From NCBI GenBank assembly GCA_947452725.1, contig CANGEG010000005.1, positions 1 to 35,889 on the forward strand: DNA of 35,889 nt. Direction: 5' to 3'. This document shows, piece after piece, positions 1,235-18,036 of this stretch (position 1 is the first letter of the stretch; every line of letters starts with the position of its first letter). The position numbers and the translations under genes were made by a program. The notes beneath the pieces were generated by a model, which had not been told where the DNA came from, ran no database searches, and saw nothing but the letters and a program-made list of their open reading frames with translations. The stretch is from Comamonadaceae bacterium (GTDB lineage: Bacteria; Pseudomonadota; Gammaproteobacteria; Burkholderiales; Burkholderiaceae_C).

Positions 1235-1256
1235 GACAATACACTAATGTATTGTC
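1235..1256. promoter_or_regulatory. Candidate TetR-type operator, site S1
   Basis: GACAATACACTAATGTATTGTC; inverted repeat GACAATACA/TGTATTGTC, 30 bp upstream of the dehalogenase start; related to S2 and S3. Confidence 0.7.
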
Positions 1257-1285
1257 CGAAGTTCATTTTGTTTGGCAGGCCCCGC

Positions 1286-2212
1286 ATGAGATCTTTACCG
1301 CGTATTGACCAAGTTCTGAGAACCCCGCCAGAATGTTTTGAGGGGTTAAGAGATTTTCCTTATTTGCCGCACTACGCCGAAATCGGCGGGCTGCGTGTGG
1401 CCTATATCGACGAAGGCCCGGCCGATGGCCCTAAGGTCTTGTTGATGCACGGTGAGCCGACCTGGTCTTACCTTTACCGCAAGATGATTCCTGTCCTAGT
1501 GCAAGCTGGTTGCCGGGTGATTGCCCCCGATTTGGTGGGTTTTGGCCAATCCGACAAACCCACCCGGCGCCAGGACTACACCTATGCCAACCACGTGGCC
1601 TGGATGTCGGCATTGATCGAGCAACAGGACTGGCAAGGGATGACTTTCTTTGGCCAGGACTGGGGCTCCTTGGTGGGCTTGCGCGTGGTGGCGGGCATGC
1701 CGCAGCGGTTTGACCGAATCGTACTGGGCAACGCCGCTTTACCCACGGGTCAAGAAATCTTGCCCCAAGCCTTTCGCATTTGGCGTGCATTTGCCATGTA
1801 CAGCCCTTGGTTTCCGATTGGCCGCATTGTCAAAGCCGGTTGCCGCATGGGCTTGACGGACCTTGAGGTGGCTGCCTACGATGCACCATTTCCTACGCGT
1901 GCTTACCGCGTCGGCGCACGGGTTTTTCCCACCCTCGTGCCCGATGGGCCCAACCATCCTGAGGGTATAGCCAACGCGCGTGCCTGGGATGTCTTCAAAC
2001 AATGGCACAAACCGCTGCTGACTTTGTTCAGCAACCGCGATCCGATTACCCGCGGCGGCTACAAAATTTGGCAAACCATGGTGCCCGGCGCACAGGGCCA
2101 GCCGCATGCAAATATTCGCGGAGCAGGCCATTTTTTGCAAGAAGACAGCGGCGTGGAGGTGGCCCAGGCCATGGCGAAATTCATCCACAACACACCGGTC
2201 GTCAGTGCCTGA
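1286..2212 (+). CDS. Haloalkane dehalogenase (alpha/beta hydrolase, HLD-I-like)
   Basis: MRSLPRIDQVLRTPPECFEGLRDFPYLPHYAEI...; HGEPTWSYLYR oxyanion-hole motif, GQDWGS nucleophile elbow, NRDPIT acid, GAGHFLQED histidine; internal ATG at 1286 preferred over 1136. Confidence 0.85.
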   Translation: MRSLPRIDQVLRTPPECFEGLRDFPYLPHYAEIGGLRVAYIDEGPADGPKVLLMHGEPTWSYLYRKMIPVLVQAGCRVIAPDLVGFGQSDKPTRRQDYTYANHVAWMSALIEQQDWQGMTFFGQDWGSLVGLRVVAGMPQRFDRIVLGNAALPTGQEILPQAFRIWRAFAMYSPWFPIGRIVKAGCRMGLTDLEVAAYDAPFPTRAYRVGARVFPTLVPDGPNHPEGIANARAWDVFKQWHKPLLTLFSNRDPITRGGYKIWQTMVPGAQGQPHANIRGAGHFLQEDSGVEVAQAMAKFIHNTPVVSA

Positions 2213-2221
2213 AGGGGTCAT

Positions 2222-3304
2222 ATGAAAAGCAGTCTTTCACGTCGGATCCTCTACAGCCTGGTGGCACTTGGTTTTGCTCTCGGCCTTGCCTGGGCGTTCA
2301 GGGCCAGCCTGAGTGTTTGGGTTGCGCAAAAGGTGGTAGGCCAGCGCCTAGCCACTGAATTGAAGAAGGAACTGAGCGATGGCTTGCATGTGGGTTTGTG
2401 CGGTGCGGGTTCGCCTTTTCCAGACGACAAGCGCACCGGCCCTTGCACCCTTGTGGTGGCTGGCTCCAAAATGTTCGTCTTTGACGCAGGCAACGCCGCC
2501 ACCCGCAATTTGGGCAAGATGGGCGTAAACCATGGGCAAATTGATGCGATTTTTCTGACCCATTTCCATTCCGATCATTTGGACGGTTTGGGCGAGTTGC
2601 TGCTGCAGCGCTGGATCTCGACTGGCAACGCCAGGCCGGTGCCGGTCTATGGACCACCGGGCGTGCAACGCGTGGTCGCCGGTTTGCGCGAGGTCTATGC
2701 CCAAGACGAGAGCTACCGCGTGGCGCATCACGGCGAGGCCATCGTGCCGTCTTCTGGGTTTGGTGGCGAGGCCCATCCCTTTGAGGTGACGGCGCAGCGT
2801 AATCTGTTGATTTACCAAGATGGCGGCGTTGAAGTGCGTGCCTTTGCCGTGGATCATGCGCCGGTGCACCCTGCGGTGGGGTACCGCATTAGCTACCAAG
2901 GCCGCAGCGTAGTGCTCAGCGGTGATACCCGCCCATCAGAGGCGGTGCGCGAGCAAGCCCAAGGCGTGGACTTGCTGGTGCATGAGGCTTTGTCCGAACC
3001 CTTGGTCCGAATCATTGGCGATGCGGCCTTGAAGGCGGGGCGCCCGAATGTGAAAAAACTGATGTCCGACATCGTCGATTACCACTCGTCACCCGAGCAG
3101 GCCGCGCAGGTGGCCCAAGATGCCCAGGTGGGCTATTTGTTACTCAGCCACATTGCACCGCCTTTGCCGATTCCTGGCATGGACAAAGCCTTCTTGGGCA
3201 ATGCGGAGGCGATCTACAAAGGCCCGATACGCGTGGGGATCGATGGTGACTTTGTCAGTTTGCCTGCAGGCAGCAAAGAGATCCTCGTGAGCAAACGGTT
3301 TTGA
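2222..3304 (+). CDS. Metallo-beta-lactamase-fold hydrolase with N-terminal membrane segment (RNase Z/arylsulfatase-like)
   Basis: THFHSDHLDG motif, LVHEA and LLLSHIAP metal-site segments; N-terminal hydrophobic stretch ILYSLVALGFALGLAWAF. Confidence 0.8.
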   Translation: MKSSLSRRILYSLVALGFALGLAWAFRASLSVWVAQKVVGQRLATELKKELSDGLHVGLCGAGSPFPDDKRTGPCTLVVAGSKMFVFDAGNAATRNLGKMGVNHGQIDAIFLTHFHSDHLDGLGELLLQRWISTGNARPVPVYGPPGVQRVVAGLREVYAQDESYRVAHHGEAIVPSSGFGGEAHPFEVTAQRNLLIYQDGGVEVRAFAVDHAPVHPAVGYRISYQGRSVVLSGDTRPSEAVREQAQGVDLLVHEALSEPLVRIIGDAALKAGRPNVKKLMSDIVDYHSSPEQAAQVAQDAQVGYLLLSHIAPPLPIPGMDKAFLGNAEAIYKGPIRVGIDGDFVSLPAGSKEILVSKRF

Positions 3305-3349
3305 TATACAGGGCTTGGCACAGCTTTTTACGGCATGCAACTGGCCCCA

Positions 3350-4639
3350 TCACGCCACAAAGATGCGCGCCAAGCGGCCCATAGACGACCAGTACAAATC
3401 GCGCTGCCATCCTGCGCTGGGAAATACCACTCCTTGCGTGATGCCGCCTGAGCGCACGCGCCCCTTTTCGTCGCCTGAAACGATGTCCAGCACCACCACT
3501 TCTTCGCGCCAGTGGCGGTAATCGTTAAGTACCAGCTCCCCGCTGTCGGGGTAGAGCAGCATGTGACTGGCGCAGCCAAAGTCCTGCTTTTGCCATAAAG
3601 GCTCTAATCGCGTGCCGCCAGGGTCCTCTTGCTGTTCATCCTGAAGTCGCCATGCGCGTAAAACGCGGTTCGACGAGTCGTAGGCGATTACGCAGCGCCT
3701 TTGCAAATCCACCAGAGGTGGGTTGGTAATGCTGCCCTGGGGCAGACCACATACCTCCCAAGCTTGGTGATCTTGCGAGTCGCCTAGCGCCACGCGAATC
3801 AATCGGTTGGGCGAGGCGTTCAGGCCCGCACCGATCATGCGCAAGCGGTAGTTGTGCCGTCCGTTGTCCATGAACCAGGCATGAGCGCCGTCAATCACCA
3901 TATCCCAGCCATAAGACTGCGTGGCACCCGACAGGTAGTCATATTGCCAAGCTTCGTCGCGAACCAGGGCCTGAAGCTCATCACGCCAGTGGTAACGAAA
4001 CACAGATCGTACGCCCACCACGTACACCGTGTTGCCTTGGCTGCTGAGCCGAGCAATCGATGGTTCTGGGCACTTTGTATCGGCACAGGCTCTTTGCAGA
4101 TCGGTGGTCAGCACTGTCAGCTGAGCATGAGTTTGGTCGGAGAGATTTTTGGTAACCAACATGCCGTTGTCCAGAATCACAAACGAGTTGTAGGCCTGAT
4201 CAACGGGTAATTGAAAATGCTTGCGCACCTCGCAGGCGCGGCTCAAGCGGTGGGCATGCCGGCCATAGACCACATACAGATCGCCATTGGCGTGTATGGC
4301 CATGCCTCCCGGCCACATGGGGCCTCCAGGTAAGCGTGGGGAGGCGCACAGTGTTTTGAGCGAAAGGGGATCAATCATTTCCACGCAGGCGGTGGTGGGC
4401 AGGCCCAGGTGCGCGCGCAGGGCGGAATGGGTCAGCAAATACACCTGGCCCGGATCACCCAGAACTGTCATGGTCGAGAGCAAGGTGTTGCGCGTGGTGC
4501 AGGCCAAGCGCTCACCCGCTTGCAGGTTCAGGCCGGGCCAGTTCACACCGGTTGCGCCCCAGGGCTGCTGCAAGCGCTGAGGCCCTGCGTCTTCAGATGG
4601 CCAGGGACTGCGAAAGTAGCCTAAAGGAAAGGGTGTCAT
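3350..4639 (-). CDS. Hypothetical protein, beta-propeller/SMP-30-like
   Basis: ORF continues to 4723, but ATG at 4639 overlaps the sulfatase stop (TGATG); repeated blade-like strands such as GGMAIHANGDLYVVYGRHAHRLSRA. Confidence 0.6.
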   Translation of the reverse strand: MTPFPLGYFRSPWPSEDAGPQRLQQPWGATGVNWPGLNLQAGERLACTTRNTLLSTMTVLGDPGQVYLLTHSALRAHLGLPTTACVEMIDPLSLKTLCASPRLPGGPMWPGGMAIHANGDLYVVYGRHAHRLSRACEVRKHFQLPVDQAYNSFVILDNGMLVTKNLSDQTHAQLTVLTTDLQRACADTKCPEPSIARLSSQGNTVYVVGVRSVFRYHWRDELQALVRDEAWQYDYLSGATQSYGWDMVIDGAHAWFMDNGRHNYRLRMIGAGLNASPNRLIRVALGDSQDHQAWEVCGLPQGSITNPPLVDLQRRCVIAYDSSNRVLRAWRLQDEQQEDPGGTRLEPLWQKQDFGCASHMLLYPDSGELVLNDYRHWREEVVVLDIVSGDEKGRVRSGGITQGVVFPSAGWQRDLYWSSMGRLARIFVA

Positions 4640-6492
4640 CACACCTTGCTGCGTCGCTGACTGCGCCGACGTCGCCAAAGTGCAATGCCCGCAAAAAACA
4701 GCACTGTTCCCGCGGTCAGCCACAGGCCATAAGTGGGCAGCCAGTAGTCGAGCACCATATTGATTGCCACTTGCCGCACCGGGTTGTAGTCGTCTGGCAC
4801 GGGCAAGACCCCATGGGCATCGGCCCAGACTTGGTAGTCATTTTGCATGGCCGCAAATTCGGTCGGCATTTGCACCTGCAGCTCACGGGTTTCGCCGGGG
4901 TCGCTCATCACATCAAAAAGCCGCCATTGCCCGTCGCCCAGCGGCGGTAAATTTTTGACCAGCTTCAAAGCCCCTTTAAACAGCGCCGAATTGCCCGATA
5001 ACTCATAGCCCAATATTTCATCAGTCCGTCGCAGCGGTGCGCTGTCGCCTTGCAAGGCGGCGCGTAGGCTGTGGCCCGCCATGGCTTCAACGGGCTTGCC
5101 TTTGTATTGCCCAGGCGCTGGTGAAATACCGGCCATCTCCAGCAAAGTGGGCGCGATGTCGGTCACATGGGTCAAGCCGGTATAAATGGGGTGAGTGCTG
5201 TTGACACCTGCCCCAGAGATGAACATGGGCACTCGGATGCCGCCTTCACCTGCGAAAAATTTAAAGCCATTCATTGGGCTGGAAGATGCGCTGGCCCAAC
5301 TGGGGCCTTGGATGCTGTAAGCCCCAGGGCCACCCAAGCGATCTATGTTTTGGCTGTATTGGGTCATGAGCCACGGTTGAGCCATTGTGTAGTCAGAGCC
5401 CTCGGCGCCGTTGTCCGACAAAAACACAAAGACCGTGTGGTCGTATTGTCCCGTGGCTTTGAGGTGCGCGACCAGCCGGCCCACCTGGTAGTCCATGGCT
5501 TCGGCCATTGCGGCATAGACCTCCATGCGCCGTGCTTCATAGCGCTGGGTCGGCGAGTCTTGCGCGTCCCAATTCCGGGTGGTGGGCAAGGTGACCATGG
5601 CGATGTTGGCTGGCACCAGCCCCAAGGCGACGGCGCGGTCGCGCCGTGCTTGGCGCAAGGCGGTCCAGCCCTGATCGTAACGGCCTTTGTATTTGGCAAT
5701 GAACTCAGCGGGCGCTTGCACCGGCACATGATTGGCCTGGAAACCGACATAGGCCATGAAAGGTTTGGCGCTGGCTTGGTCTTGATCGAGGTAGCCAATC
5801 ATCCGGTCCACAAAGTACTCGGACGAATAAAACTTTTTCGGCATCACTGCGCTGTGGCCGTCCTCGTACCAATACACCTTGTCGTTATGAGGCAAGTAAC
5901 GTTGTGACGGGTCCCAGTTGTCAGAGCCTGTGTCGCCTTGCACAATTGAGCGGTCAAAGCCGCGTTGCGGAGGCAGGTTGCTCGGCTCGGAGCCCACATT
6001 CCATTTGCCGGTGATGTAGGTGCGGTAACCGTCGTCTTTCAACAGACTGGAAACGGTCACCACCCGTTGAGTGAGTGAGCCTTGGTAGGCCGGGCTGCTC
6101 AGGTGGGCACGCGGTGTGCTCTCGCGCAAATTGCCAATACCCGCGCGGTGACTCTCCACCCCCGTCAACAGCATGGAGCGCGTGGGTGAACAAGAAGCTG
6201 CGGTGTGGAAGTTGGAAAAGCGTACGCCCCGTTGCGCCAAAGCGTCTAGGTGCGGGGTAGCGATCTCGCCGCCGAAAGCGCCCAGGTCACTGAAGCCCCA
6301 ATCGTCGGCGACCAAGATAACAATGTTGGGTCTTTGGCCTTGGGCTGCATGGGCTTTGCTTAGTGCTGCACCCGCACTCGCACCCGTCGTGGCGGATAAG
6401 GCCATGGTGGCGCTGAGTGACAGAGACAGGCACCAGCTTTTAATAAGGCGCTGGCGACAGGGCGCTGGACGTAGCTTGTTGTGCTTAATCAT
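4639..6492 (-). CDS. Arylsulfatase, type I (formylglycine-dependent), exported, C-terminal TM anchor
   Basis: PNIVILVADDWGFSDLGAFGGEIATPHLD, CSPTRSMLLTG signature, TGKWNVG, LSDNGAEG; signal peptide after MIKHNKL; C-terminal LWLTAGTVLFFAGIALWRRRRSQRRSKV. Confidence 0.93.
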   Translation of the reverse strand: MIKHNKLRPAPCRQRLIKSWCLSLSLSATMALSATTGASAGAALSKAHAAQGQRPNIVILVADDWGFSDLGAFGGEIATPHLDALAQRGVRFSNFHTAASCSPTRSMLLTGVESHRAGIGNLRESTPRAHLSSPAYQGSLTQRVVTVSSLLKDDGYRTYITGKWNVGSEPSNLPPQRGFDRSIVQGDTGSDNWDPSQRYLPHNDKVYWYEDGHSAVMPKKFYSSEYFVDRMIGYLDQDQASAKPFMAYVGFQANHVPVQAPAEFIAKYKGRYDQGWTALRQARRDRAVALGLVPANIAMVTLPTTRNWDAQDSPTQRYEARRMEVYAAMAEAMDYQVGRLVAHLKATGQYDHTVFVFLSDNGAEGSDYTMAQPWLMTQYSQNIDRLGGPGAYSIQGPSWASASSSPMNGFKFFAGEGGIRVPMFISGAGVNSTHPIYTGLTHVTDIAPTLLEMAGISPAPGQYKGKPVEAMAGHSLRAALQGDSAPLRRTDEILGYELSGNSALFKGALKLVKNLPPLGDGQWRLFDVMSDPGETRELQVQMPTEFAAMQNDYQVWADAHGVLPVPDDYNPVRQVAINMVLDYWLPTYGLWLTAGTVLFFAGIALWRRRRSQRRSKV

Positions 6493-6772
6493 GATGTTCT
6501 TTGGCGGTATCTGCCGCATCGGCCAAAGGCTTCCAATGCAACAAGCCAAATAACAGCGTCAACAATATGCTGAGTGCGACCGGCCCTTTGTATGAACGCA
6601 CATGCTTGAATACAAACGCCAGCTCCAAGGCATGAATAAATACCAAAATCAAAGCTGCTCGCGTTGGGTCAAAAGGCCAGTCTACAGCCATGGGCCACAA
6701 AGCGTGGGCAAGGCCAAGACAGAGCAGCGTCAAGCAGGCACATTTGGAAATCAAAACAACAACAGGGTTCAT
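6485..6772 (-). CDS. Small membrane protein, DUF1145/YhhL-like
   Basis: 95 aa, several predicted TM segments; overlaps the upstream stop (ATGA) and the downstream start (ATGATTAA). Confidence 0.6.
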   Translation of the reverse strand: MNPVVVLISKCACLTLLCLGLAHALWPMAVDWPFDPTRAALILVFIHALELAFVFKHVRSYKGPVALSILLTLLFGLLHWKPLADAADTAKEHHD

Positions 6773-8100
6773 GAGAATCTTTTATTTTCTTTGTCAAATG
6801 CAGGAGCAGCTGGCAATGAGGTACTTTGGTGCAAGGCCATATCTACCGCCGCCATGCGGTCTTGTCCCCACACGGCAGTGTCGCCCACCTTAAAACTGGG
6901 CACCCCCCACAGACCCAATCCCAGCATCTCCACGCGGCTGGCTTCGGCGCTTATACGCCAGGCGTCGTCTTGCAATGCGGCGCAGACCTCAGGCCAAGCC
7001 AGCCCGGCCCGCGTGGTGATATGGCGCAGGCCTTTGTCGCTGCCAGCGTTGAGGCCTTCGGCCCACACCCCTTGCATGAAGGACAGTACGTAGGCCTGGC
7101 CCACGCCTCGGGCTTCGGCCAAAGGCATCAACGCCAAGCCACGCTCCGTCGGTTTGCCTACAGGGTCGCACACACGCCCAAACGGCACGTTTAAACGGCG
7201 TGCTTCGCGAGCCGCATCAAGGCTGATGTACATGCGTTTGCTTTTCGGCACGGCCAGTCCGCGCATGACCATGGGCAATACATAACGTAACCGTACCTGA
7301 ATGTTAGTGCCCTTTGTTAGAGCAAACAGGCGGTGCGCAGCAATGGCAGAGTAAGGACTGCGGAAGGAAAAATAAAAATCAACGCTGCTTCCCGGTGCCG
7401 CTTGCTCCCAATGGGTTGCTGCCTCGGGCTCGAACATAAAGCCCTTGGTGTCAGCACGCGCAGCGCCCAAGGCTTGCAAGCGTTCCTCCAAATGGTGCAA
7501 CCGGTCTAGGCCCCAGTACCACTCACCTGCGTAGTACAGCATGCTGCCGCTGTAATGCCCCAAGCGTCGGCGCAAAGCGTCTGACATGGCCAAGTGCGTT
7601 TGGACCTGCACTGGGCTGGCCGAGGGAAGAATTTGTGATGATGAGCTGGCAGAACTCCAAAGCGCTTGCACTAACTCGCTGCTGTGATGCTCAAATTGCT
7701 GTGACTCGATCAGGTGCACGAGTTGGGCGCTGTTTTTCTCAATTTCGAGTGATGTTGGTTGCTGACCTGTGTCCTCGAAGTTCAAGCCCTGTTGTTGCGC
7801 CAACCAGGCCGCGTCTCTACGACTGTAGGCGATGAGGCGTTCACGGTCTGGCGCAGCATCGGCTGCCGGTGGGCTAACAAGGTGAGACCGCACATCAATG
7901 TCGTAACGCTGGCGCAGTTGCGGCAGACATTGCACCATTAGGGCCGAATAGGGGTCGTCTACTTGGTGAAAATAATGCACCTGATGTGGCTCAGCGCGTT
8001 GGCAGCGCTGGCGTTCAGCGCTGCGACGTTGCCCAGCCAAACGCTGAGGCGACAACCACCAGGCGGAGATGGCGGGCATGAGCAAGCTCTTGAGGTTCAT
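6769..8100 (-). CDS. DsbA-fold / 2-hydroxychromene-2-carboxylate isomerase family protein with two tandem domains
   Basis: VHYFHQVDDPYSALMVQ and VDFYFSFRSPYSAIAAHRLF; C-terminal LGLWGVPSFKVGDTAVWGQDRM; no CxxC in either domain. Confidence 0.75.
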   Translation of the reverse strand: MNLKSLLMPAISAWWLSPQRLAGQRRSAERQRCQRAEPHQVHYFHQVDDPYSALMVQCLPQLRQRYDIDVRSHLVSPPAADAAPDRERLIAYSRRDAAWLAQQQGLNFEDTGQQPTSLEIEKNSAQLVHLIESQQFEHHSSELVQALWSSASSSSQILPSASPVQVQTHLAMSDALRRRLGHYSGSMLYYAGEWYWGLDRLHHLEERLQALGAARADTKGFMFEPEAATHWEQAAPGSSVDFYFSFRSPYSAIAAHRLFALTKGTNIQVRLRYVLPMVMRGLAVPKSKRMYISLDAAREARRLNVPFGRVCDPVGKPTERGLALMPLAEARGVGQAYVLSFMQGVWAEGLNAGSDKGLRHITTRAGLAWPEVCAALQDDAWRISAEASRVEMLGLGLWGVPSFKVGDTAVWGQDRMAAVDMALHQSTSLPAAPAFDKENKRFS

Positions 8101-8160
8101 CGGCGAATGGATTGGGCCATCAAGGCGCTAACTGAAAGGCTGGCTTCAGCCTGACGATGG

Positions 8161-8180
8161 CCGAAACACAAGTGTATTGT
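8161..8180. promoter_or_regulatory. Candidate TetR-type operator, site S2
   Basis: CCGAAACACAAGTGTATTGT in the divergent intergenic region between 8100(-) and 8294(+); aligns on the same dyad as S1 and S3. Confidence 0.6.
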
Positions 8181-8293
8181 TTGGGCACAATGTAGCACGG
8201 CACCAGGGAGGACAAGCTCAGGGTTTTCGCTATTTCTTAGCTTGACACATTGGCTTGAGCTGTCTGGCCTAAGTCTTTTTTAGGAGAATTTTC

Positions 8294-9085
8294 TTGTTGA
8301 AAAAAATTTTGATCACCGGTGCAGGCACAGGCATTGGGCGTGATGCGGCCTTCGAATTGGCAGCGCGTGGGCATCAGGTCTGGGCGACGACCTACGATGA
8401 AACGCAGGCTGAGGCCTTGACGCGCGACGTTCGCGTGCGAGGGCTGCCTATAACCGTGTTCAAACTTGACATCACAAGCGAAGCTGATCGGGCCTTGGCG
8501 GTGCCTTTGGCTCTGGATGTGTTGATCAACAACGCGGGTGTAGGCGAATCAGGTGCTTTGGCCGAAGTGCCAATGGAGCGCATTCGCCATGCATTTGAAG
8601 TCAATGTATTTGCCACCTTGGCGCTAACGCAAACCGTTCTGGCCGGCATGTTGGCGCGGGAGCGGGGCACAGTGCTTATAGTTAGCTCTATCGCGGGCCG
8701 TATTCCGGTGCCGTTTTTGATGCCTTACGGCATGACTAAATTTGCTTTGTCGGCAGCGGGTGCTGGTTTACGCGCTGAGATGGACCGGTTGAAAAAAAAC
8801 ATCCACATTACACTGATTGAGCCTGGGGCGATTCACACTGGGTTCAACCAAGCCATGACCGCGCGCAAGTACGACTGGATGAACGAGCGTTCCTATTTTT
8901 GGGCTTTACGTGATCGCTTGAAGGCTGAAGAAAAACGCAGTTTTGATTTCCTCGAAGCCCGCGACACGAGCTCCATTGTTGCCCAAATTGTCAAAGCAGC
9001 TGAAGCCCGGCGACCGCGCCTGCGCTATGTGGCTCCAAGAATTCAAGCTTGGATGGTGCGTCTGGCGCGGGTGTGCGGAGTTTGA
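8294..9085 (+). CDS. Short-chain dehydrogenase/reductase (SDR)
   Basis: TTG start; ILITGAGTGIGRDAA cofactor motif, LINNAGVG, SSIAGRIPVPFLMPYGMTKFAL. Confidence 0.9.
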   Translation: MLKKILITGAGTGIGRDAAFELAARGHQVWATTYDETQAEALTRDVRVRGLPITVFKLDITSEADRALAVPLALDVLINNAGVGESGALAEVPMERIRHAFEVNVFATLALTQTVLAGMLARERGTVLIVSSIAGRIPVPFLMPYGMTKFALSAAGAGLRAEMDRLKKNIHITLIEPGAIHTGFNQAMTARKYDWMNERSYFWALRDRLKAEEKRSFDFLEARDTSSIVAQIVKAAEARRPRLRYVAPRIQAWMVRLARVCGV

Positions 9086-9118
9086 GCACTTGGTAGCAGT
9101 TGGGTACTTCAAAAAGGC

Positions 9119-9784
9119 TCATTGGTGGGACAGGTGCGGCGCCATCATGGACTTCACCATCATCAAAACGATGGCTTTAGCTTTGGCCGCCGACAGGCCT
9201 TGCAAGGTTCGCAAACGCATCCATGTTTCCAGGCTTACCAGCATAGACAAGCCTTCAAAAAACACACGGTCTTGCACATACGGGGCAGGTAGCAGCCGGG
9301 TCAGGATGTCTTGCTCAATTTTCACACGGCGTTGAACTTGCAACCTGATGAACTCTGAGTCGTGCATGTGCAATTGGGCTGCAATGTGAAAGGGTGTCAG
9401 ACGATCAAAAATATCGCAACGCCTTTGGATGCCCTCGATCAAGCGGCTGCTCCATTCGGTCGCTCTCAGGGGCTTGTTAACCAAGGGAATCATTAACTCA
9501 TCCAAGCGTTGAGTGATCTCTCGGTAAAGTGTTTCCATGTCGTCGAAATGGCGAAACACGGTACGCAATCCTACTTGCGCTTGTGTTGCAATTTGCTCCG
9601 CCGTGGGCGATGGATGGCCATTACCAATCAACTCTATGAAAGCCGTGACGATGACTTGCCGCGTTCTAATGCTGCGATGATGGCGACCGTCTGTGATCGT
9701 GTCAGGTGGTGCAGTAGCAGTCATTTTTCTGAATACTTTAGAGCTTGTTTTTTCATGGATGGATTGTCCTTGATCACGCCGCAA
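9119..9784 (-). CDS. TetR/AcrR family transcriptional regulator
   Basis: HTH: PTAEQIATQAQVGLRTVFRHFDDMETLYREI; true start may be internal (around 9721). Confidence 0.85.
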   Translation of the reverse strand: MRRDQGQSIHEKTSSKVFRKMTATAPPDTITDGRHHRSIRTRQVIVTAFIELIGNGHPSPTAEQIATQAQVGLRTVFRHFDDMETLYREITQRLDELMIPLVNKPLRATEWSSRLIEGIQRRCDIFDRLTPFHIAAQLHMHDSEFIRLQVQRRVKIEQDILTRLLPAPYVQDRVFFEGLSMLVSLETWMRLRTLQGLSAAKAKAIVLMMVKSMMAPHLSHQ

Positions 9785-9866
9785 TTCGTTGGCATCGAGA
9801 GCGTTCTTCTCCGTAAAATCAATAGCGGCTAGTGTTTGTCCCTATTGTTCTGGCTTGTGAAACAAA

Positions 9867-9883
9867 TGACATTGAGTATGTCA
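9867..9883. promoter_or_regulatory. Inverted repeat upstream of TetR-1, candidate operator
   Basis: TGACAT-TGAGT-ATGTCA. Confidence 0.35.
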
Positions 9884-10130
9884 GTTAATGATAGCGCGAC
9901 CGAGATGTAGGCCTTGCATGAACTTGTTAATGACAAGATAAGTGAGTTGAAGTGCCATGTCTTGGGTGTGTTATCCGCAGCCGACTTGTGTTTCTTAAGC
10001 CCGCTCGCATAGCGCAGCGACCACAACCAAAACTGATAAACAAGACCACTTTAATTAGTTGTGATTTGTGTGTTGTCATACGATGATGGCTGCACCTCAA
10101 TTGCCGCTCACTGAACCCGAAGGATCCCCT

Positions 10131-11318
10131 ATGAAAAAAAATCACACATTCAAGTTGGCCGGCACGGCCATGGTCATTCTGTCTGCAGCTTCATCGGCTT
10201 TTGCGGCGGATGGTTTTAAATTGCGTTTCCCCATTTCGGGCACTTTGGGTGGAGAAATTGTGGCCCCTCTTCCTTCAGAGGGTTGGGTCGGCTCAGTGGC
10301 TTACACCGACATCAATATCGATAAAATTGGTGGGGCTGATGGCAATGCGCTGTCATTGCAAAAACCAGCGACTTTTGGGCCTTTAACTCCGGCTCAATTG
10401 GCCGCCGTGCCCGCTGTCGCTATTCCTGGTGTCGGCTCATTTACGGCCGCCCAGATGCAAGCGGCTTTAAACGGCAGAACTGCCTCGACCGTGGGAGCTG
10501 TTGGTGTGGATTATCACCAACAAATCAAGCAGGCCAATTTGACCTTTGCTCGCATCTTGGACAAGGACGTTCAAGGCGGAAAGTTGGCTATTGCCATCAA
10601 CATTCCATACGCGCTGACCTTGAAGTCTGACGCCTTGTTTACGGGTGCGACGCCGACCTTGAGTGCTTTGAGCCCTTCCGCTGGCCCACTGGCCCCAGTC
10701 GCGCAACAGGTGGCTCAATCCAGTTTCAGTACAGGGTATCAAGCTGCTGTAGCAAGCCAATGGCAGTCCGCCAATGTCAACACTTCAGGTTTGGGTGACA
10801 TCGAGACCAGCTTGTTGTGGGAAAAATCGATCGATCAACTCAAAATCGTGGCTGGCGCGACGCTCGCTTTGCCTACAGGCAATTACAACTATGTGGAAGG
10901 CCGACTTGCACCCAACGTTGGTTATGGAAAGTATTACACGTTCCGTCCGGGCGTTGGGGTGGCTTACACCGCTTCTGAGAATGTGACTTTGGGTGCACGA
11001 GGCAGTTTAGGGTTCAATACTAAGAATACCGAAAACAATGTGCGAAGTGGAGATTTTTATGTGATCGATTTGGCTGCAGCCTTCAAAACTCCTGTGGGTG
11101 TTTTCGGTCCGCATATGACCGTTATGCGCCAGTACACAGATGACACAGGGGGGCAGTTGGGCGCTAACCGCGTTTCACTGACAGGTGCTGGAATGTTTGC
11201 TGCATTTCCGATTGCAGCCATCGGTGCAGGCCTGAACCTCTCTTACATGAAGACCATCGATGCACGCAACTCCTTGGCAGGCAGCTTCGTGCAGGCTCGC
11301 ATTTCCAAAGCTTTTTAA
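10131..11318 (+). CDS. Outer-membrane channel/transporter, phenol_MetA_deg-like
   Basis: MKKNHTFKLAGTAMVILSAASSAFAADG signal peptide, beta-barrel-like alternating pattern, C-terminal aromatic residue (SKAF). Confidence 0.7.
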   Translation: MKKNHTFKLAGTAMVILSAASSAFAADGFKLRFPISGTLGGEIVAPLPSEGWVGSVAYTDINIDKIGGADGNALSLQKPATFGPLTPAQLAAVPAVAIPGVGSFTAAQMQAALNGRTASTVGAVGVDYHQQIKQANLTFARILDKDVQGGKLAIAINIPYALTLKSDALFTGATPTLSALSPSAGPLAPVAQQVAQSSFSTGYQAAVASQWQSANVNTSGLGDIETSLLWEKSIDQLKIVAGATLALPTGNYNYVEGRLAPNVGYGKYYTFRPGVGVAYTASENVTLGARGSLGFNTKNTENNVRSGDFYVIDLAAAFKTPVGVFGPHMTVMRQYTDDTGGQLGANRVSLTGAGMFAAFPIAAIGAGLNLSYMKTIDARNSLAGSFVQARISKAF

Positions 11319-11332
11319 ATACCCTGCATCAC

Positions 11333-11366
11333 ACTCCAAGTTGCGCATGCCCAGCGCACTTGGAGT
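11333..11366. terminator. Hairpin between convergent genes, possible bidirectional terminator without a clear U-tract
   Basis: ACTCCAAGTTGCGC-ATGCCCA-GCGCACTTGGAGT, one bulged base. Confidence 0.45.
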
Positions 11367-11369
11367 TGC

Positions 11370-13046
11370 TCAATTGGCATAGTAGACGTAAGCCTCACCC
11401 GGCTTGGATGCTTGTTTGAGAGTCCTGTCCAGGGCGATAGGGGCTTCAGCCAGCGAGGGCCACAACGGTTTGCCCTGCTGGGCATTGATGGCCAATAGAC
11501 TTTTCTTCATATCTGCCAACCGCTTAGGTTCTTGACTTGCCAGGTTGTTGCGCTCCCCCGGATCTACGGCCAAGTTGTACAGCACATCTTGCTTGGGTCG
11601 TTCCATGACTTGCAGTTTCCAGTCCCCCGTGCGTAGCGCCAGGTAAGTATCGGTGCGGAAAAAGAGTTGCTCATGTGGAGCTTGCGTGTTCAGACCTTTG
11701 GCAAAAGGCAAGAGATTCACGCCGTCCAAGTCTTTACCTTCTGGGGGCGCTGCGTGGGCCGCAGCCAAGGCGGTACTGAAAATATCCAGATGGCTGATGG
11801 GTTGCGTGTACTGGGTGCCTGTGGGCAAGCCCTTAGGCCACTTCATGAAAAAAGGAACGCGGATGCCGCCTTCATAGAACGTGGCTTTCCAGCCGCGAAA
11901 AGGTTTGTTCAAGTCGGGTACACCGATGTAATGTGCGCCACCGTTGTCGCTGGTAAAAATGATCATGGTGTTGTCATCTAACCCCTGCTTTTTGAGGTGC
12001 TGCAACAAGCGCCCGATGTTGCGGTCCAAAGATCGGATCATGGCCGCATAAACGCGTGTGGTGTGGTCTGTGATGTGGGACAGTGCATCGTAATCCTCAC
12101 GCGTCGATTGCAAGGGTGAGTGTGGCGCGTTGTACGCCAAGTACATAAAGAAGGGGTTTTGTTTATTGACATCGATGGCTTTGATTGCCTCATCGGTCAA
12201 ATAATCGGTCATGTAGCGCGGTGGTTGAAAGGGTTCGCCGTCATTGAATCTGATACCCCAGGGATGGGCGGCCCATAGAAATTTATCAATCGGGTCGAAA
12301 TCTTGTTTTGCATTGACCACGTGCGGCGAGTTTTCTGGCAAAAACATGGATGCGCCATGCATCAGAGCCAGTGACTCATCAAAGCCGTGCGAATAGGGCC
12401 GAAACTGGGGGCTGTCGCCCAAATGCCATTTGCCCAGTTGTAATGTTCGATAGCCAGAATTTTTCAGCGCACGTGCCAGCGTCACTTCCTGCACCGGTAA
12501 GCCCATGTCTTCATAGGGGATCAAATCGGCTTCGCGCTCGGGGTGATAAATGGGCTTGCCCGACTGAATGCCGTTGCCCTCTGCGGCAATCACTTTCATA
12601 AATTGCTTGGGGGTGGGCGTGAACTCAAAACCAAACCGGGTGGGGTAGCGCCCGGTCATCATGGCTGCGCGCGATGGCGCGCAGGTGGCATTGCCGGAAT
12701 AGCCCGCCAAGAAATCGACCCCGTTGTGAGCCAGTGAATCTATATGGGGCGTAGGGACCGTACCTTGCGCGACACCACCGCCGTGCGCGGTAATGTCGTT
12801 GAAGCCCAGATCGTCGGCAACAATCAAAATGATATTGGGTCTTTTTTCTGCTGAGTTCGCTAAGGGGCTAATCACAGGCGTGGCCCACTGCACTTCTTGC
12901 GCGGGGCCGTAATCTTTGCGAATCATGTATTTCACTGCCCACAGCATCGCGCCTGTACGCCCGCCGATCGCCCAATACCCAACTCCCAGGAGCATCAATA
13001 GGACGAGTAAGCCGATAAAGCTTCGGCGCAAGAGAGATGACGACAT
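11370..13046 (-). CDS. Arylsulfatase, type I, N-terminal membrane anchor
   Basis: PNIILIVADDLGFNDITAHGG, CAPSRAAMMTGRYPTRFG signature, LGKWHLG, FTSDNGG; N-terminal FIGLLVLLMLLGVGYWAIGG. Confidence 0.94.
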   Translation of the reverse strand: MSSSLLRRSFIGLLVLLMLLGVGYWAIGGRTGAMLWAVKYMIRKDYGPAQEVQWATPVISPLANSAEKRPNIILIVADDLGFNDITAHGGGVAQGTVPTPHIDSLAHNGVDFLAGYSGNATCAPSRAAMMTGRYPTRFGFEFTPTPKQFMKVIAAEGNGIQSGKPIYHPEREADLIPYEDMGLPVQEVTLARALKNSGYRTLQLGKWHLGDSPQFRPYSHGFDESLALMHGASMFLPENSPHVVNAKQDFDPIDKFLWAAHPWGIRFNDGEPFQPPRYMTDYLTDEAIKAIDVNKQNPFFMYLAYNAPHSPLQSTREDYDALSHITDHTTRVYAAMIRSLDRNIGRLLQHLKKQGLDDNTMIIFTSDNGGAHYIGVPDLNKPFRGWKATFYEGGIRVPFFMKWPKGLPTGTQYTQPISHLDIFSTALAAAHAAPPEGKDLDGVNLLPFAKGLNTQAPHEQLFFRTDTYLALRTGDWKLQVMERPKQDVLYNLAVDPGERNNLASQEPKRLADMKKSLLAINAQQGKPLWPSLAEAPIALDRTLKQASKPGEAYVYYAN

Positions 13047-13161
13047 AAGCCACTTTCATTTGCGCAATGGATTTGCGCTTATCTAATTTGGTCTCACATT
13101 CTCTGTGGAAACTTCAACCGACACCATGGGTTGTTTCACCCTTGCCGGGCCATCTTTAATG

Positions 13162-13178
13162 TGGCATGGTAAATGCCA
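13162..13178. promoter_or_regulatory. Inverted repeat upstream of TetR-2, candidate operator
   Basis: TGGCAT-GGTAA-ATGCCA. Confidence 0.35.
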
Positions 13179-13241
13179 ATACCTGCTTTTCAGGGGCCCT
13201 GTGTCAAAGTCTTTTTTGCCTGCACTTGATCAGTCGGGCGG

Positions 13242-13943
13242 TTGGGCCCATTTCTGATAACCTTAAGTGCGTTTTGTTCATTACACACTTCAAACCATCA
13301 GTCCGTGGCGTCTACCTTAAAACCCCCCTCTTCCACTACAGCTTCGTCCAAAGAAGGGCCGCGACTGAAGCGTGAAGATTGGTTGCAAGCGGCTTTCAAC
13401 GCGGTGGTGGACGGTGGCATCGACAACCTCAAAATTCTCACCCTCGCTGAAACCTTGGGCGTGACCCGTGGCAGCTTTTATTGGCATTTTGTGGACCATG
13501 CTGAATTACTCCAGGCCACTTTGCAGGGCTGGAAGGGCCAAGAAATCCAACGCCTTTTGCGCATTGAAGCCCAGCAAACGCAAGATCCTTTGGCCGATGT
13601 GCACACGCTGCTGGAAGAGGCCTTGGCCCACAGCGGTGATGAACTGGAAAACATGAGGTTTGAACTCGCCGTCAGAGGCCTGGGCCGGCGCGATGCGCAG
13701 GTTGCAAACTTGCTCATTGAGGTCGATCAAGCACGCACCCATCTGTTTGTGAAAAAATTTAACCGCTTGTTTCAGGACCCCCAAAAAGCCAGCGACTTGG
13801 CCGCCTTGTTTTACTTGACGATCGTGGGCTGTTTTCAAGCTTTGAGCCGACCCGGTAACCCTGCGAGGTCCAAAGACTATTTCAAGTCCATCATTTCAAC
13901 TTTCTTGATCCACGCCCAATTGCCCCAGTCTTCAGCTGAGTAG
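13242..13943 (+). CDS. TetR/AcrR family transcriptional regulator
   Basis: LKREDWLQAAFNAVVDGGIDNLKILTLAETLGVTRGSFYWHFVDHAELLQATL; start may be GTG around 13302. Confidence 0.87.
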   Translation: MGPFLITLSAFCSLHTSNHQSVASTLKPPSSTTASSKEGPRLKREDWLQAAFNAVVDGGIDNLKILTLAETLGVTRGSFYWHFVDHAELLQATLQGWKGQEIQRLLRIEAQQTQDPLADVHTLLEEALAHSGDELENMRFELAVRGLGRRDAQVANLLIEVDQARTHLFVKKFNRLFQDPQKASDLAALFYLTIVGCFQALSRPGNPARSKDYFKSIISTFLIHAQLPQSSAE

Positions 13944-13956
13944 TCAAACTGAGTGC

Positions 13957-15354
13957 TCAGGGTTGGCGCTCCACAGCGGGCATATGCCAGGCGCCGTTCA
14001 GTGCTTCGGCTTGTGGCCAATACAAGCGCGCACTGAGCAAGAAGGGCGCACCCTCATTCACCGCTATCCAGTTGGCTTGCCGCGGCCCTTCTGGCGCCTG
14101 CGCCTGAATCCACAGATCTAAAGAACCGTCTGAATTGGCCACCAGAGGGTGCAGGCTACCCAAAGCATGGCGGTGAGAGGGGTGATCGATCAAAAAGTCG
14201 TCTAAGCCATAGGCCGTGACGGACCAGAAGGCTTTGACCGGTGGCCACTGTCCTGCAGAAAAATGCATGCGATAGCTGTGGCGCCCATGCAGTGACGCCC
14301 CGCTGCTGTCCAATAGGGCGCTGGGGTACATCGCGTCCTCGGGCAGATTGGCACCTAAACCGATCATGGCCACGGCGGTGCGAATGTTGTAGTCCTCTCC
14401 GTATTGGCCCAAGTTGCGTGGCGGTGTGGACCAGCCATTCACCAGATCACGCGGATGGTTAAGTGCTTGCGCGATCTTGATGTCGGCGATCCAACGTCCC
14501 AGACTCACTGCTGTTTGGTCAAACCAACTCCAGATAATGGGTTGACCCACTTGAATGCCGATCTGCGCCAGCTCTCGCAACATGGGGGCGTCGGCTGCAA
14601 AGGGCGGGTTGACGCGCATTAACTCAGTCAGGCGTTTGAAAAAATCAACCGTGGCCATGCGCTGCATTTGCAACATGGGTGGCGTCAGGATCGCTGTAGA
14701 TTTTTGCCAGGTCTGGGCAGGGGAGCGCTGATGCTCATTGGCCCGTGGGGTCAATTGCAAACCATCTTGCAAGCGATGCACCAGCATGAGATCGGCGTCG
14801 CCTTGGGTTTGGGTGCGACCGATTAGCCAGGCCATGGTGGTCGGCGAGCGCAGCAAGATCGTGCCTTTCGGAGGCGTGCCTTGCCATTGGGGGCCGACAA
14901 TCCAATAACGCCCGCCTGCGGTGCCTTGTGTGCGCGTGCCCAGTGCGGCGAACACATTAGTCCAAGCATCTAAGAAGGCCATCACTTCATAGCGCAATGC
15001 ATTGGGCGGCATCTCAAACAGCACCGGGCTTTGCGACAGGTCTAAAAAGGCGGTGCTGTACAAAGTGTCCAGGTTCGGGCGCACCACGGTCTTAAATTGC
15101 GCATCAGGAAACTGCCTTACCCTTTGCAATACGTTCACCGGAGCGATACTCAAGGCCGCATTTTCTCGCGTGATGTCCATGATCACTAAAGGGTAGCCGA
15201 ACACATAGCCTTGGGCGCCGATGCGGATGTGATCGGCTTTCCACCACGCCAGCCCTGCAGTCACCAGCAAAGGAACCAGCAGCCAGGCGAAGGCGCGCCG
15301 CAGGCGATGCAATGGGCTTGAAGCCGCAGGGGAGGGTGACGCATTGGCCGTCAT
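13957..15354 (-). CDS. DUF1254/DUF1214-like protein with N-terminal membrane segment
   Basis: AYVFGYPLV-type segment (AQGYVFGYPLVIMDITREN), VVRPNLDTLYSTAFLDLSQSPV, C-terminal FWSVTAYGLDDFL; overlaps the FGE stop by 4 nt. Confidence 0.8.
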   Translation of the reverse strand: MTANASPSPAASSPLHRLRRAFAWLLVPLLVTAGLAWWKADHIRIGAQGYVFGYPLVIMDITRENAALSIAPVNVLQRVRQFPDAQFKTVVRPNLDTLYSTAFLDLSQSPVLFEMPPNALRYEVMAFLDAWTNVFAALGTRTQGTAGGRYWIVGPQWQGTPPKGTILLRSPTTMAWLIGRTQTQGDADLMLVHRLQDGLQLTPRANEHQRSPAQTWQKSTAILTPPMLQMQRMATVDFFKRLTELMRVNPPFAADAPMLRELAQIGIQVGQPIIWSWFDQTAVSLGRWIADIKIAQALNHPRDLVNGWSTPPRNLGQYGEDYNIRTAVAMIGLGANLPEDAMYPSALLDSSGASLHGRHSYRMHFSAGQWPPVKAFWSVTAYGLDDFLIDHPSHRHALGSLHPLVANSDGSLDLWIQAQAPEGPRQANWIAVNEGAPFLLSARLYWPQAEALNGAWHMPAVERQP

Positions 15355-16403
15355 TTCAAATCCTTAGGGGCGGGGGCCAGCAACACGGTACGAAAACCTA
15401 AATGGCTGGTGCCCAGGTCTTCTTCTTGGGGTTGGCGCGATCCCGAGCGGTAGCGCATGCAATAGTCAGGTGAGCATAAAAAAGAGCCGCCCTTGATCAC
15501 TCGTTGGCGTGCACCCGCATTGCGAACCAGCGCCGAATCCGGGCTGTTCTCCTCTTTTTGGCTTGAGACAGCGCGGTGATCCTCGGTGTACAGGTCGCGG
15601 GTCATCTCCCACACATTGCCCATCATGTCGTACAAGCCCCAAGCATTCGGTGCGTAGCAACCCACCGGGGCCAGGCCGACAAACCCATCATCGGCTGAGT
15701 TCAGCACAGGAAACACACCTTGCCAAGTGTTGGCACCATGCGGTTGATCATGATCTTTGGCGGCTTTGATCTCGCCGGCGCGTGCGGCCCATTCCCACTG
15801 GCTTTCGGTGGGCAGGCTTCGCCCTTTCCAAGTGGCATAGGCCATTGCGTCTTCGTAAGTCACGGTGACCACAGGGAAGTTGCCACGACCTTGGATGTTG
15901 GTGCTAGGCCCGCCAGGGTGTCGCCACTGGGCGCCGGCCACATATTGCCACCATTGCTGAAGGTCGTTGCGGTTGTGAAGCTTGCTGGGCATGGCAAACA
16001 CAACGGCACCGGGCGCGCGCAGTTCAGGGGGGAAATCGGGGTGTTGTTTGGCATCCCAAGCTCGCTCGGCCAAAGTGACATAGCCCGTGGCCTGAACGAA
16101 GGCGGAAAATTCGTCATTGCTCACTTCAGTGCGGTCCATCCAAAAGCCGTCAACGTGGGTGCGCCGGACAGGGCCTTCTTCGGGATATGTCGTGTCTCCC
16201 ATGTCAAATTGACCCGCAGGCACCCACACCATGCCCGAGTAGCGCACGCCGGGTTCAATCGGAGGCATTGAGCATGCACGCACCGACGCGACGACGCTGC
16301 GGGCCGAGTTTGGGGGATGTGCCAGCCGCCAGCCGCCCAGTGCGATTACGACTGCGGCCAACAATGCCACTGGCCAAAGGATACGAGCAGGAGGCCTGGT
16401 CAT
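15351..16403 (-). CDS. Formylglycine-generating enzyme (sulfatase-modifying factor) with N-terminal membrane segment
   Basis: MVWVPAGQFDMGDTTYPEEGPVRRTHVDGFWMDRTEVSNDEF; GGSFLCSPDYCMRYRSGSRQ with two Cys spaced five residues; N-terminal ILWPVALLAAVVIALGGWRLA. Confidence 0.9.
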   Translation of the reverse strand: MTRPPARILWPVALLAAVVIALGGWRLAHPPNSARSVVASVRACSMPPIEPGVRYSGMVWVPAGQFDMGDTTYPEEGPVRRTHVDGFWMDRTEVSNDEFSAFVQATGYVTLAERAWDAKQHPDFPPELRAPGAVVFAMPSKLHNRNDLQQWWQYVAGAQWRHPGGPSTNIQGRGNFPVVTVTYEDAMAYATWKGRSLPTESQWEWAARAGEIKAAKDHDQPHGANTWQGVFPVLNSADDGFVGLAPVGCYAPNAWGLYDMMGNVWEMTRDLYTEDHRAVSSQKEENSPDSALVRNAGARQRVIKGGSFLCSPDYCMRYRSGSRQPQEEDLGTSHLGFRTVLLAPAPKDLK

Positions 16404-16461
16404 GGATGGCAGGGATTAAAGAAGTGAAGTTGCCATCTTAAGTGCAGGCTTGCCCCAAACA

Positions 16462-17082
16462 TCAGGACAAAATCTGCGTCGTTCCCCAAGCCATCAGTGC
16501 GCACACAACGGCCATATCAAAGCGAGCGCTGAACCCGCTCACCAAAGGGCGAACGGGAAACACCTGGGTCTGCTCAATGGCTGCCCATTTGTGCACTGAG
16601 ATGCCTTGCTTTTCGATGTCCAAAGCAAAATTTAAAAAATCTCTGCGGCTTCTGTACCGAACCATGGCCACGTAATGCCATTCCGGTGCATTGGCATCGT
16701 TGACAAATTGCCCTGTTTTGCGCGCAATGAAGATCGGTAGACAGGCCCGTTTGAGCAAGGGCCAAATGATGGCCTTGCCATAACGCTGGTCCGCTTGCCG
16801 CGGATCTGAGCCAAAGGGCGAGCCCTCAGGATACAGCGCCTGCTTGCGGTAGAGCACCGCATTGGACATGATGAATTCGCGGCCATCGTCTTGCGCTAAG
16901 AACTGCTCTACTTCATGCAAGTGCGCCAGGCTGAGCGGACCAGATACTACGGAGTGAAGTTGTTGAACGCCTTGGGCAGTTTCTTGCGCCGTCAAGGGTT
17001 TGCCGCGCCCGCCCCACCAAAGCAGAAATAACAGATAAAGCGCGGCCCAAGTTACCAGAATGATTTGGTTTGTGCTGCTCAT
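16462..17082 (-). CDS. Hypothetical membrane protein, DUF1330-like region
   Basis: Start at MSSTNQIILVTWAALYLLFLLWW, 6 nt after the upstream stop; WHYVAMVRYRSRRDFLNF segment. Confidence 0.55.
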   Translation of the reverse strand: MSSTNQIILVTWAALYLLFLLWWGGRGKPLTAQETAQGVQQLHSVVSGPLSLAHLHEVEQFLAQDDGREFIMSNAVLYRKQALYPEGSPFGSDPRQADQRYGKAIIWPLLKRACLPIFIARKTGQFVNDANAPEWHYVAMVRYRSRRDFLNFALDIEKQGISVHKWAAIEQTQVFPVRPLVSGFSARFDMAVVCALMAWGTTQILS

Positions 17083-17087
17083 CAGGT

Positions 17088-17912
17088 TCAGGCGGGTTGG
17101 CCGACCACGGTAAATTGGGAGGCGTTGTTGTGTAGCCAAGCTCGCGAAAGGCTAGCGTCGTGTTGGGAGGGGTGAAAATCTTTGCGCAAATAGTCTCGCC
17201 ACAGCACCATATTGCCTCGCAACAAGCCGTCCTTGGCGAACAGCAGGCGTGCAGCACTGCGCCAGGTTTGCAGCTGGAAAAGGCTGCCGTCGTGCCACAA
17301 ATTTAACACGGTCTGACGCAGGATGTCGGCCAAGAAAATGACCGTTACGTAGCGAAACACTTTCAAGCGACGAGCGTGGTCGCCGCCCAAGGCTTGGTAC
17401 AAGTCGAAAGCGGTGCAGCGGTGCTCAGCCTCTTCGGCGCTGTGCCATAGCCAAAGGGTTTGCAAGCGGGGTTCTGCACCCTCCAAGGCCTCGGGGTGGT
17501 GAAGCATCCAGTCTGCAAACACTGCAGTGAAATGCTCTGTCGCGGCGGTGGCGGCCAGGTGCATTCGGGTATCCAGGTGGGCTTGCTTTTGAATGCGCAG
17601 GCTCGCGCGCACTGCAAACCGGTTGTCAAACCCCATTTTGATCAGGTGTTTGTTGAACAGTTCGTGGATTCGGCGGTGCGTGGCCTCTTGGCCAATAAAG
17701 CCTCTGACCTCGGTGGCCATTTGCGCATGTTGCTCGGCGGGCAATTTCTTCAATCCCTCGCGCACGGAGTCGATGAAAAACTGCTCTCCTACCGGAAAGC
17801 TCATCGATAAGGTGTTGAAAAATGCAGACCGAAATGCATCACCGCCATTCCATCTCTGTGCAAAAGGGGCTTCTAAATCAATCAGCAGGCGTCTGACGAC
17901 AAGTTCGGTCAT
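17088..17912 (-). CDS. PF10118-like metal-dependent hydrolase, ferritin-like di-metal fold likely
   Basis: FPVGEQFFIDSVR, FIGQEATHRRIHE, ATEHFTAVFADWML, WLWHSAEEAEHRCTAFDLY. Confidence 0.8.
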   Translation of the reverse strand: MTELVVRRLLIDLEAPFAQRWNGGDAFRSAFFNTLSMSFPVGEQFFIDSVREGLKKLPAEQHAQMATEVRGFIGQEATHRRIHELFNKHLIKMGFDNRFAVRASLRIQKQAHLDTRMHLAATAATEHFTAVFADWMLHHPEALEGAEPRLQTLWLWHSAEEAEHRCTAFDLYQALGGDHARRLKVFRYVTVIFLADILRQTVLNLWHDGSLFQLQTWRSAARLLFAKDGLLRGNMVLWRDYLRKDFHPSQHDASLSRAWLHNNASQFTVVGQPA

Positions 17913-17954
17913 GGTTTTTTTAAAAGAGTGACAGGGTGGACATGGAATAATTTT

Positions 17955-17974
17955 TCAATACACAAGTGTACTGT
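17955..17974. promoter_or_regulatory. Candidate TetR-type operator, site S3
   Basis: TCAATACACAAGTGTACTGT between divergent genes at 17912(-) and 18037(+); TACAC-AA-GTGTA core. Confidence 0.6.
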
Positions 17975-18036
17975 TGCTTGCCGAGATTGTCCAGAGGGGT
18001 ATTCTCGGGGTATTTGGCCTCGCAATAAGGTGCACC

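Follow-up and report, generated by a model that had tools for sequence, protein, structure and literature searches.

Three short palindromes built on one dyad stand at three promoters of an accessory gene cluster in a Comamonadaceae bacterium, and they raise the question of whether the cluster is controlled as one regulon and, if so, by which of the two TetR-family proteins encoded in it, TetR1 or TetR2. The stretch analyzed, hereafter the window, comprises 35,889 nt of contig CANGEG010000005.1 (assembly GCA_947452725.1); its own genome, that of a freshwater bacterium from a Limnohabitans-like genus of the Comamonadaceae, is represented by 2.94 Mb in 276 contigs and is 81% complete. It appears highly likely that the palindromes, designated S1, S2, and S3, are operators of a repressor, TetR2, which is encoded midway along the cluster and would jointly control most of it. 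In kind, they are ordinary TetR operators; the interest lies in their wide conservation and in the pathway under their control.

Three copies of one palindrome

S1 (ACAATACACTAATGTATTGT, 1236-1255) lies upstream of a haloalkane dehalogenase-metallo-beta-lactamase (MBL) fold hydrolase operon, S2 (CCGAAACACAAGTGTATTGT, 8161-8180) between a DsbA-like gene and a short-chain dehydrogenase/reductase (SDR) gene, and S3 (TCAATACACAAGTGTACTGT, 17955-17974) between a PF10118 gene and an esterase gene. A previous sequence-only reading of the window had reported these palindromes and their gene neighborhoods, and both the letters at these coordinates and the positions of the genes relative to the three sites are exactly as it gave them. 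Its proposal of a shared TetR-type operator at three promoters is well supported by the genome scan and by conservation at the same promoters.

With up to three mismatches allowed and both strands counted together, the window holds seven matches to AATACACNNRTGTAYTGT, whereas shuffled sequences give a mean of 0.39, and six of these seven strand-matches are S1, S2, and S3 read on both strands. The own genome was scanned by mismatch patterns, and a matrix was applied to the window. In the 2.94 Mb, S1 and S3 are the sole perfect matches to WCARTACAYNNRTGTAYTGW, S2 has three mismatches to it, and the scan did not encounter many equally good copies at unrelated genes. The palindromic matrix, for which 77 sites outside the window's clade were picked with the consensus pattern, scores S1 at 32.1 bits, S3 at 31.8, and S2 at 17.6, the fourth-ranked place in the window reaching 0.9; no position in 5 Mb of simulated sequence attains the score of S2. 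The earlier remark that no copy precedes sulfatase 2 or the outer-membrane protein gene also holds, the best candidates there having 6-7 mismatches. A fourth genomic site (C148:1232, two mismatches), located between the terminus of a glmS-like gene and a neighboring adhesin-like one, is probably due to chance, since a reversed control pattern yields 0.43 matches per genome at two mismatches.

Conservation in related genomes

The operator and TetR2 were searched in a sample of 90 genomes of the genus and TetR1 in 60 of them; two clades are distinguished below, that of the window (G008, G067, G075, G102, G108, G111, and G112) and a second one (G001, G003, G005, G006, G009, G012, G019, G031, G034, G060, G066, G074, G079, G081, and more). 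The other Burkholderiales compared were Hydrogenophaga, Polaromonas, Rhodoferax, Roseateles, Undibacterium, Ramlibacter, and Pelomonas.

In the genomes closest to the window's own, all three sites retain their promoters. S1 is retained in place in G067, G102, G112, and G108 with 89% identity, against 30-33% in its flanks; S2 in these four and in G075, with 88%; and S3 in eight clade loci, with 94%. Across the clade, the operators are 88-94% identical, compared with 31-47% and 30-67% for the left and right 25-bp flanks, respectively, and the three sites are conserved islands within diverged intergenic DNA. S3 stands between the PF10118 and esterase genes in all seven genomes of the window's clade, while S2, between the DsbA-like and SDR genes, and S1, between rpoH and the dehalogenase gene, are present in every locus read that extends to the position concerned; for G111, S1 and S2 are assigned as a pair from sequence and spacing on contig C55.

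Beyond this clade, the motif recurs at TetR2 and PF10118 promoters. The second clade carries one strong site between TetR2 and an outer-membrane/DsbA-like/sulfatase operon, together with a weaker variant, of the TCCATACATNNNTGTATGTT type, ahead of PF10118 in six loci. In other genera of Burkholderiales, the sites are found mostly at the divergent promoter of TetR2 and at the start of the PF10118 operon, whose first gene can be an AMP-dependent ligase, and Undibacterium has further sites near flavin monooxygenase, SDR, esterase, and GST genes. At up to two mismatches, a site is lacking from some TetR2 loci in these genera. Two tandem operators, 37-62 bp apart, occur at the TetR2 promoter in some genera (loci L208, L209, L214, L241, L234, and L240), hinting at cooperative binding, and in one locus (L215) a chromate transporter gene has a perfect site nearby.

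The predicted regulator

The sequence-only reading did not choose between the two TetR proteins. Co-occurrence, position, and the motif found de novo all point to TetR2, which is very probably the regulator acting at S1-S3, rather than TetR1. At no more than one mismatch, the operator is present in all 32 TetR2-positive genomes of the genus, against 2 of the 58 that are TetR2-negative. The two exceptions are G023, with one mismatch, and G015, where only 78 bp of contig precede the S3-esterase region, which is thus a truncated copy of the same cluster. Outside the clade, an exhaustive dyad count found TACA-N4-TGTA upstream of 47 of 64 non-redundant TetR2 genes, against 0.4 expected, and the next two dyads in that count are parts of the same site. 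Among the lineages that share the operator, the aligned TetR2 proteins show no variation in their recognition helix, VTRGSFYWHF.

The membership of TetR2 in the family is evident from its N-terminal TetR_N helix-turn-helix domain, which scores 32.9 bits with PF00440 (cut-off 24). Its structural model, with a mean predicted local distance difference test (pLDDT) of 83.8, has nine helices and shows the all-helical fold of TetR proteins, including the ligand/dimer domain at the C-terminus, and among its 166 PDB matches at E up to 0.001, the best are TetR-family regulators. The palindrome that is its predicted operator is conserved at the target promoters and, in relatives, at the promoter of TetR2 itself.

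Promoter architecture and proposed mechanism

S3 contains the -10 box of the PF10118 operon promoter, TGGACA-N17-TACACT (17965-17993, minus strand), whose hexamers and 17-base spacing are identical in 8 of 8 loci; this overlap suggests that repression works by keeping RNA polymerase off the promoter. A short way downstream of TGC-TACATT (8189-8197, minus strand), a possible extended -10 for sulfatase 1 and its operon, comes S2; the element is conserved in the clade, and its layout resembles that in relatives. The places of S2 and S3 are compatible with repression by occlusion. Beside S2, there is a second conserved element, AGGGTTTTCGCTATT (8220-8234), kept in six aligned clade sequences and with a single exact copy in the genome, which keeps a distance of approximately 40 bp to the operator at S2 as well as to the TetR2-promoter operators of the second clade; it is possibly the site of a second regulator. 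At S2, a conserved AGGGTTTTCGCTA element follows the -10-like element and also accompanies the TetR2-promoter operators of the second clade, and this shared neighborhood suggests that S2 is the ancestral site, beside which the SDR gene took the place of TetR2.

In the mechanism that we propose, a TetR2 dimer would bind the 20-bp dyad WCARTACAYNNRTGTAYTGW, with its core TACA-N4-TGTA, and would block RNA polymerase at the haloalkane dehalogenase-MBL operon from S1, at the DsbA-like/sulfatase 1 operon and the SDR gene from S2, and at the PF10118-FGE-DUF1254 operon (FGE, formylglycine-generating enzyme) and the esterase gene from S3. A small molecule of the pathway would then release TetR2, so that the genes are turned on together. 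The ancestral layout would have placed the operator in the divergent TetR2 promoter, as in other lineages; after a rearrangement of the cluster in the window's clade, S2 would have kept the ancestral neighborhood of the sulfatase 1 operon, and TetR2 would have been left with no recognizable site of its own. The sequences themselves show the sites, their conservation, their link to TetR2, and the overlap of S3 with a conserved -10 box; TetR2 binding, repression over activation, and the inducer are what we infer from them.

Competing explanations

Several observations weigh against TetR2 as a repressor acting at S1-S3. The co-occurrence has a Fisher p of approximately 2e-22 among related genomes, a value that, owing to the kinship of these genomes, overstates their independence. 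The sites of the matrix having been chosen by a consensus pattern, the dyad count is the cleaner test. S2, the weakest copy, has a degenerate left arm in the window (CCGAAACAC, against TCAAAACAC or TCAAGACAC in close relatives), and no clear -35/-10 pair is seen at S1 or for the SDR gene. Furthermore, the promoter of TetR2 in the window has no site, with seven mismatches at best, and the usual autoregulation of TetR proteins is therefore absent there.

It seems quite unlikely that TetR2 binds as an activator, or that the sites serve another regulator, encoded elsewhere, whose distribution parallels that of TetR2. The conserved AGGGTTTTCGCTA element hints at a further regulator at the S2 promoter, and the direction of control is itself something that we infer; however, the coverage of the -10 box by S3 in 8 of 8 loci is the position of a repressor, and the operator stands in the TetR2 promoter in many genera, as is expected for an autoregulated TetR repressor.

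That TetR1 (9119-9784) binds S1-S3 is very improbable. Its gene belongs to this cluster both in the window and in close relatives, and control of adjacent genes is common among TetR proteins, but a TetR1 homologue is present in only 7 of 60 genus genomes, and the operator tracks TetR2 in genomes without TetR1. Three genomes that have a distant TetR1-like protein and no TetR2 (G021, G025, and G080) contain no site at up to two mismatches, and none near those genes. Additionally, TetR1 has a conserved neighboring element of its own, CTAGTGTTTNTCCCTAGTG, at the TetR1/outer-membrane protein promoter, where no operator was found in the window. TetR1 was thus rejected as the cognate regulator of S1-S3 on co-occurrence and position. 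The CTAGTGTTTNTCCCTAGTG element is near-invariant in the clade and is the sole such site in the genome at up to three mismatches; the corresponding sequence between TetR1 and the outer-membrane protein gene, CTAGTGTTTGTCCCTATTG (9829-9847), is a candidate site, outside the S1-S3 set, of TetR1 or of an activator of the outer-membrane gene.

Short repeats present in few copies can be products of chance, but a chance resemblance of these three palindromes is rejected almost completely by the shuffles, the simulated sequence, the genome scan, and the in-place conservation across genomes.

Genes of the cluster

Between the dehalogenase and the esterase, both included, there are 15 larger genes, of which 11 belong to the operons behind S1-S3, and most of the cluster is probably co-regulated. 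The four outside these operons are TetR1, TetR2, sulfatase 2, and the PF13557 outer-membrane protein.

The S1 operon (1286-3304, plus strand) consists of the haloalkane dehalogenase-family gene (1286-2212; 419 bits with NF002043, cut-off 265) and the gene for the hydrolase of metallo-beta-lactamase fold (2222-3304). A longer open reading frame (ORF) from 1136 is a mechanical over-call; relatives start the dehalogenase at the equivalent of 1286, and because the same start applies here, S1 is truly intergenic.

The minus-strand operon of S2 (3350-8100), with a gene order conserved in relatives, begins with the DsbA-like/HCCA-isomerase-like protein of DsbA fold (6769-8100; Pfam). Between this gene and sulfatase 1 (4639-6492; Pfam) lies a hydrophobic ORF of 95 aa (6485-6772), which probably encodes a small membrane protein that had been overlooked in this operon, and the operon ends with a cluster-conserved protein without a Pfam match (3350-4636, the ORF extending to 4723). 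Sulfatase 1 is nearest to the arylsulfatase 1hdh (E 4e-115), a Pseudomonas aeruginosa enzyme. On the plus side of S2 is the SDR gene (8294-9085; Pfam adh_short), followed by TetR1, which has no S1-S3 coverage.

The minus-strand operon of S3 (13957-17912), whose order is likewise conserved in relatives, contains the genes for the PF10118 protein (17088-17912; Pfam), a conserved protein without a Pfam match (16462-17139), FGE (15351-16403; Pfam), and a DUF1254/DUF1214 protein (13957-15354; Pfam). Since both sulfatases have a formylglycine motif (CSPTR in sulfatase 1, CAPSR in sulfatase 2), the maturase is relevant to both. The hormone-sensitive lipase-like esterase (18037-18942; PF07859, with NF058651 under its cut-off) occupies the plus side of S3, and TetR2 (13302-13943, plus strand; PF00440) has an uncertain start codon, likely GTG near 13305.

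Relation to known TetR-family systems

By sequence profile, the nearest solved proteins to TetR2 are SmeT (2w53, E 3e-11), TtgR, NalD, and AcrR; TetR2 nevertheless fails the curated models of AcrR (33.0 against 271 bits) and MtrR (35.8 against 280). The AcrR operator, TACATACATTTGTGAATGTATGTA, contains TACA...TGTA elements (PMC10597343), like the TetR2 dyad, whereas the TetR2 operator is a 20-bp dyad with a spacing unlike that of AcrR. SmeT uses a single operator region to repress both the pump operon and its own expression, sterically hindering RNA polymerase (PMC3128119), which is the same logic as that predicted for TetR2 in the second clade. However, AcrR, TtgR, SmeT, and NalD control multidrug efflux pumps, while the predicted targets of TetR2 are hydrolases and oxidoreductases, and no RND efflux pump operon is divergent from TetR2 in the window or in relatives; in the window it neighbors sulfatase 2 and the DUF1254/FGE genes, and in relatives the outer-membrane/DsbA-like/sulfatase operon.

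FadP, which belongs to the TetR family and regulates the degradation of fatty acids in betaproteobacteria, Comamonadaceae among them (PMC5343134), is comparable, by description only, in its family, its occurrence in Comamonadaceae, its control of several catabolic operons through one operator, and its comparative discovery. Its targets are fatty acid degradation genes, whereas no core beta-oxidation gene lies behind S1-S3, and an AMP-dependent ligase is found near operators in other genera only, not behind S1-S3. Fold-level matches of the TetR2 model also include KstR, KstR2, and FasR, with approximately 16-17% identity in the fold alignment. These TetR-family proteins regulate the lipid and steroid genes of actinobacteria and control the catabolic operons of one pathway; they belong to another phylum and recognize other operators than TetR2.

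A possible pathway and significance

The TetR2 operator may mark an undescribed catabolic pathway for a sulfated hydrophobic compound in several genera of mostly freshwater Burkholderiales, a proposal that we put forward tentatively from gene content. Formylglycine-dependent sulfatases would remove the sulfate, after which the PF10118 diiron oxygenase-like protein, the SDR, the haloalkane dehalogenase-family hydrolase, and the esterase would act one after another, joined in other genera by an acyl-CoA ligase or a flavin monooxygenase, and TetR2 would sense an intermediate.

The PF10118 protein, called a predicted metal-dependent hydrolase, has an invariant pattern, E43 - E76xxH79 - E126 - E161xxH164, that resembles ferritin-like diiron proteins. 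The best matches of its model (pLDDT 93.8) are AurF and R2-like ligand-binding oxidases, at a non-significant level (E 0.05, TM 0.46). The protein may be an oxygenase rather than a hydrolase.

A literature search returned nothing relevant on this cluster or on PF10118 in such a regulon; the regulon is apparently undescribed, its novelty being provisional because literature coverage is thin for subscription papers. The analysis provides a predicted regulator, a precise operator, and defined targets for a cluster common to many freshwater Burkholderiales, which also occurs in the cultured strains Roseateles toxinivorans DSM 16998 and Undibacterium pigrum DSM 19792. Searches with the operator could reveal distant members of the pathway in further genomes, and the regulator could serve as a sensor in the search for the substrate. 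Moreover, the regulon would have been rewired within one genus, leaving the repressor gene without an operator of its own and operators at three rearranged promoters.

A repeat ahead of rpoH

A perfect inverted repeat of the CIRCE type (HrcA), TTAGCACTC-N9-GAGTGCTAA, lies ahead of rpoH at 1085-1111 and is kept in five aligned genomes.

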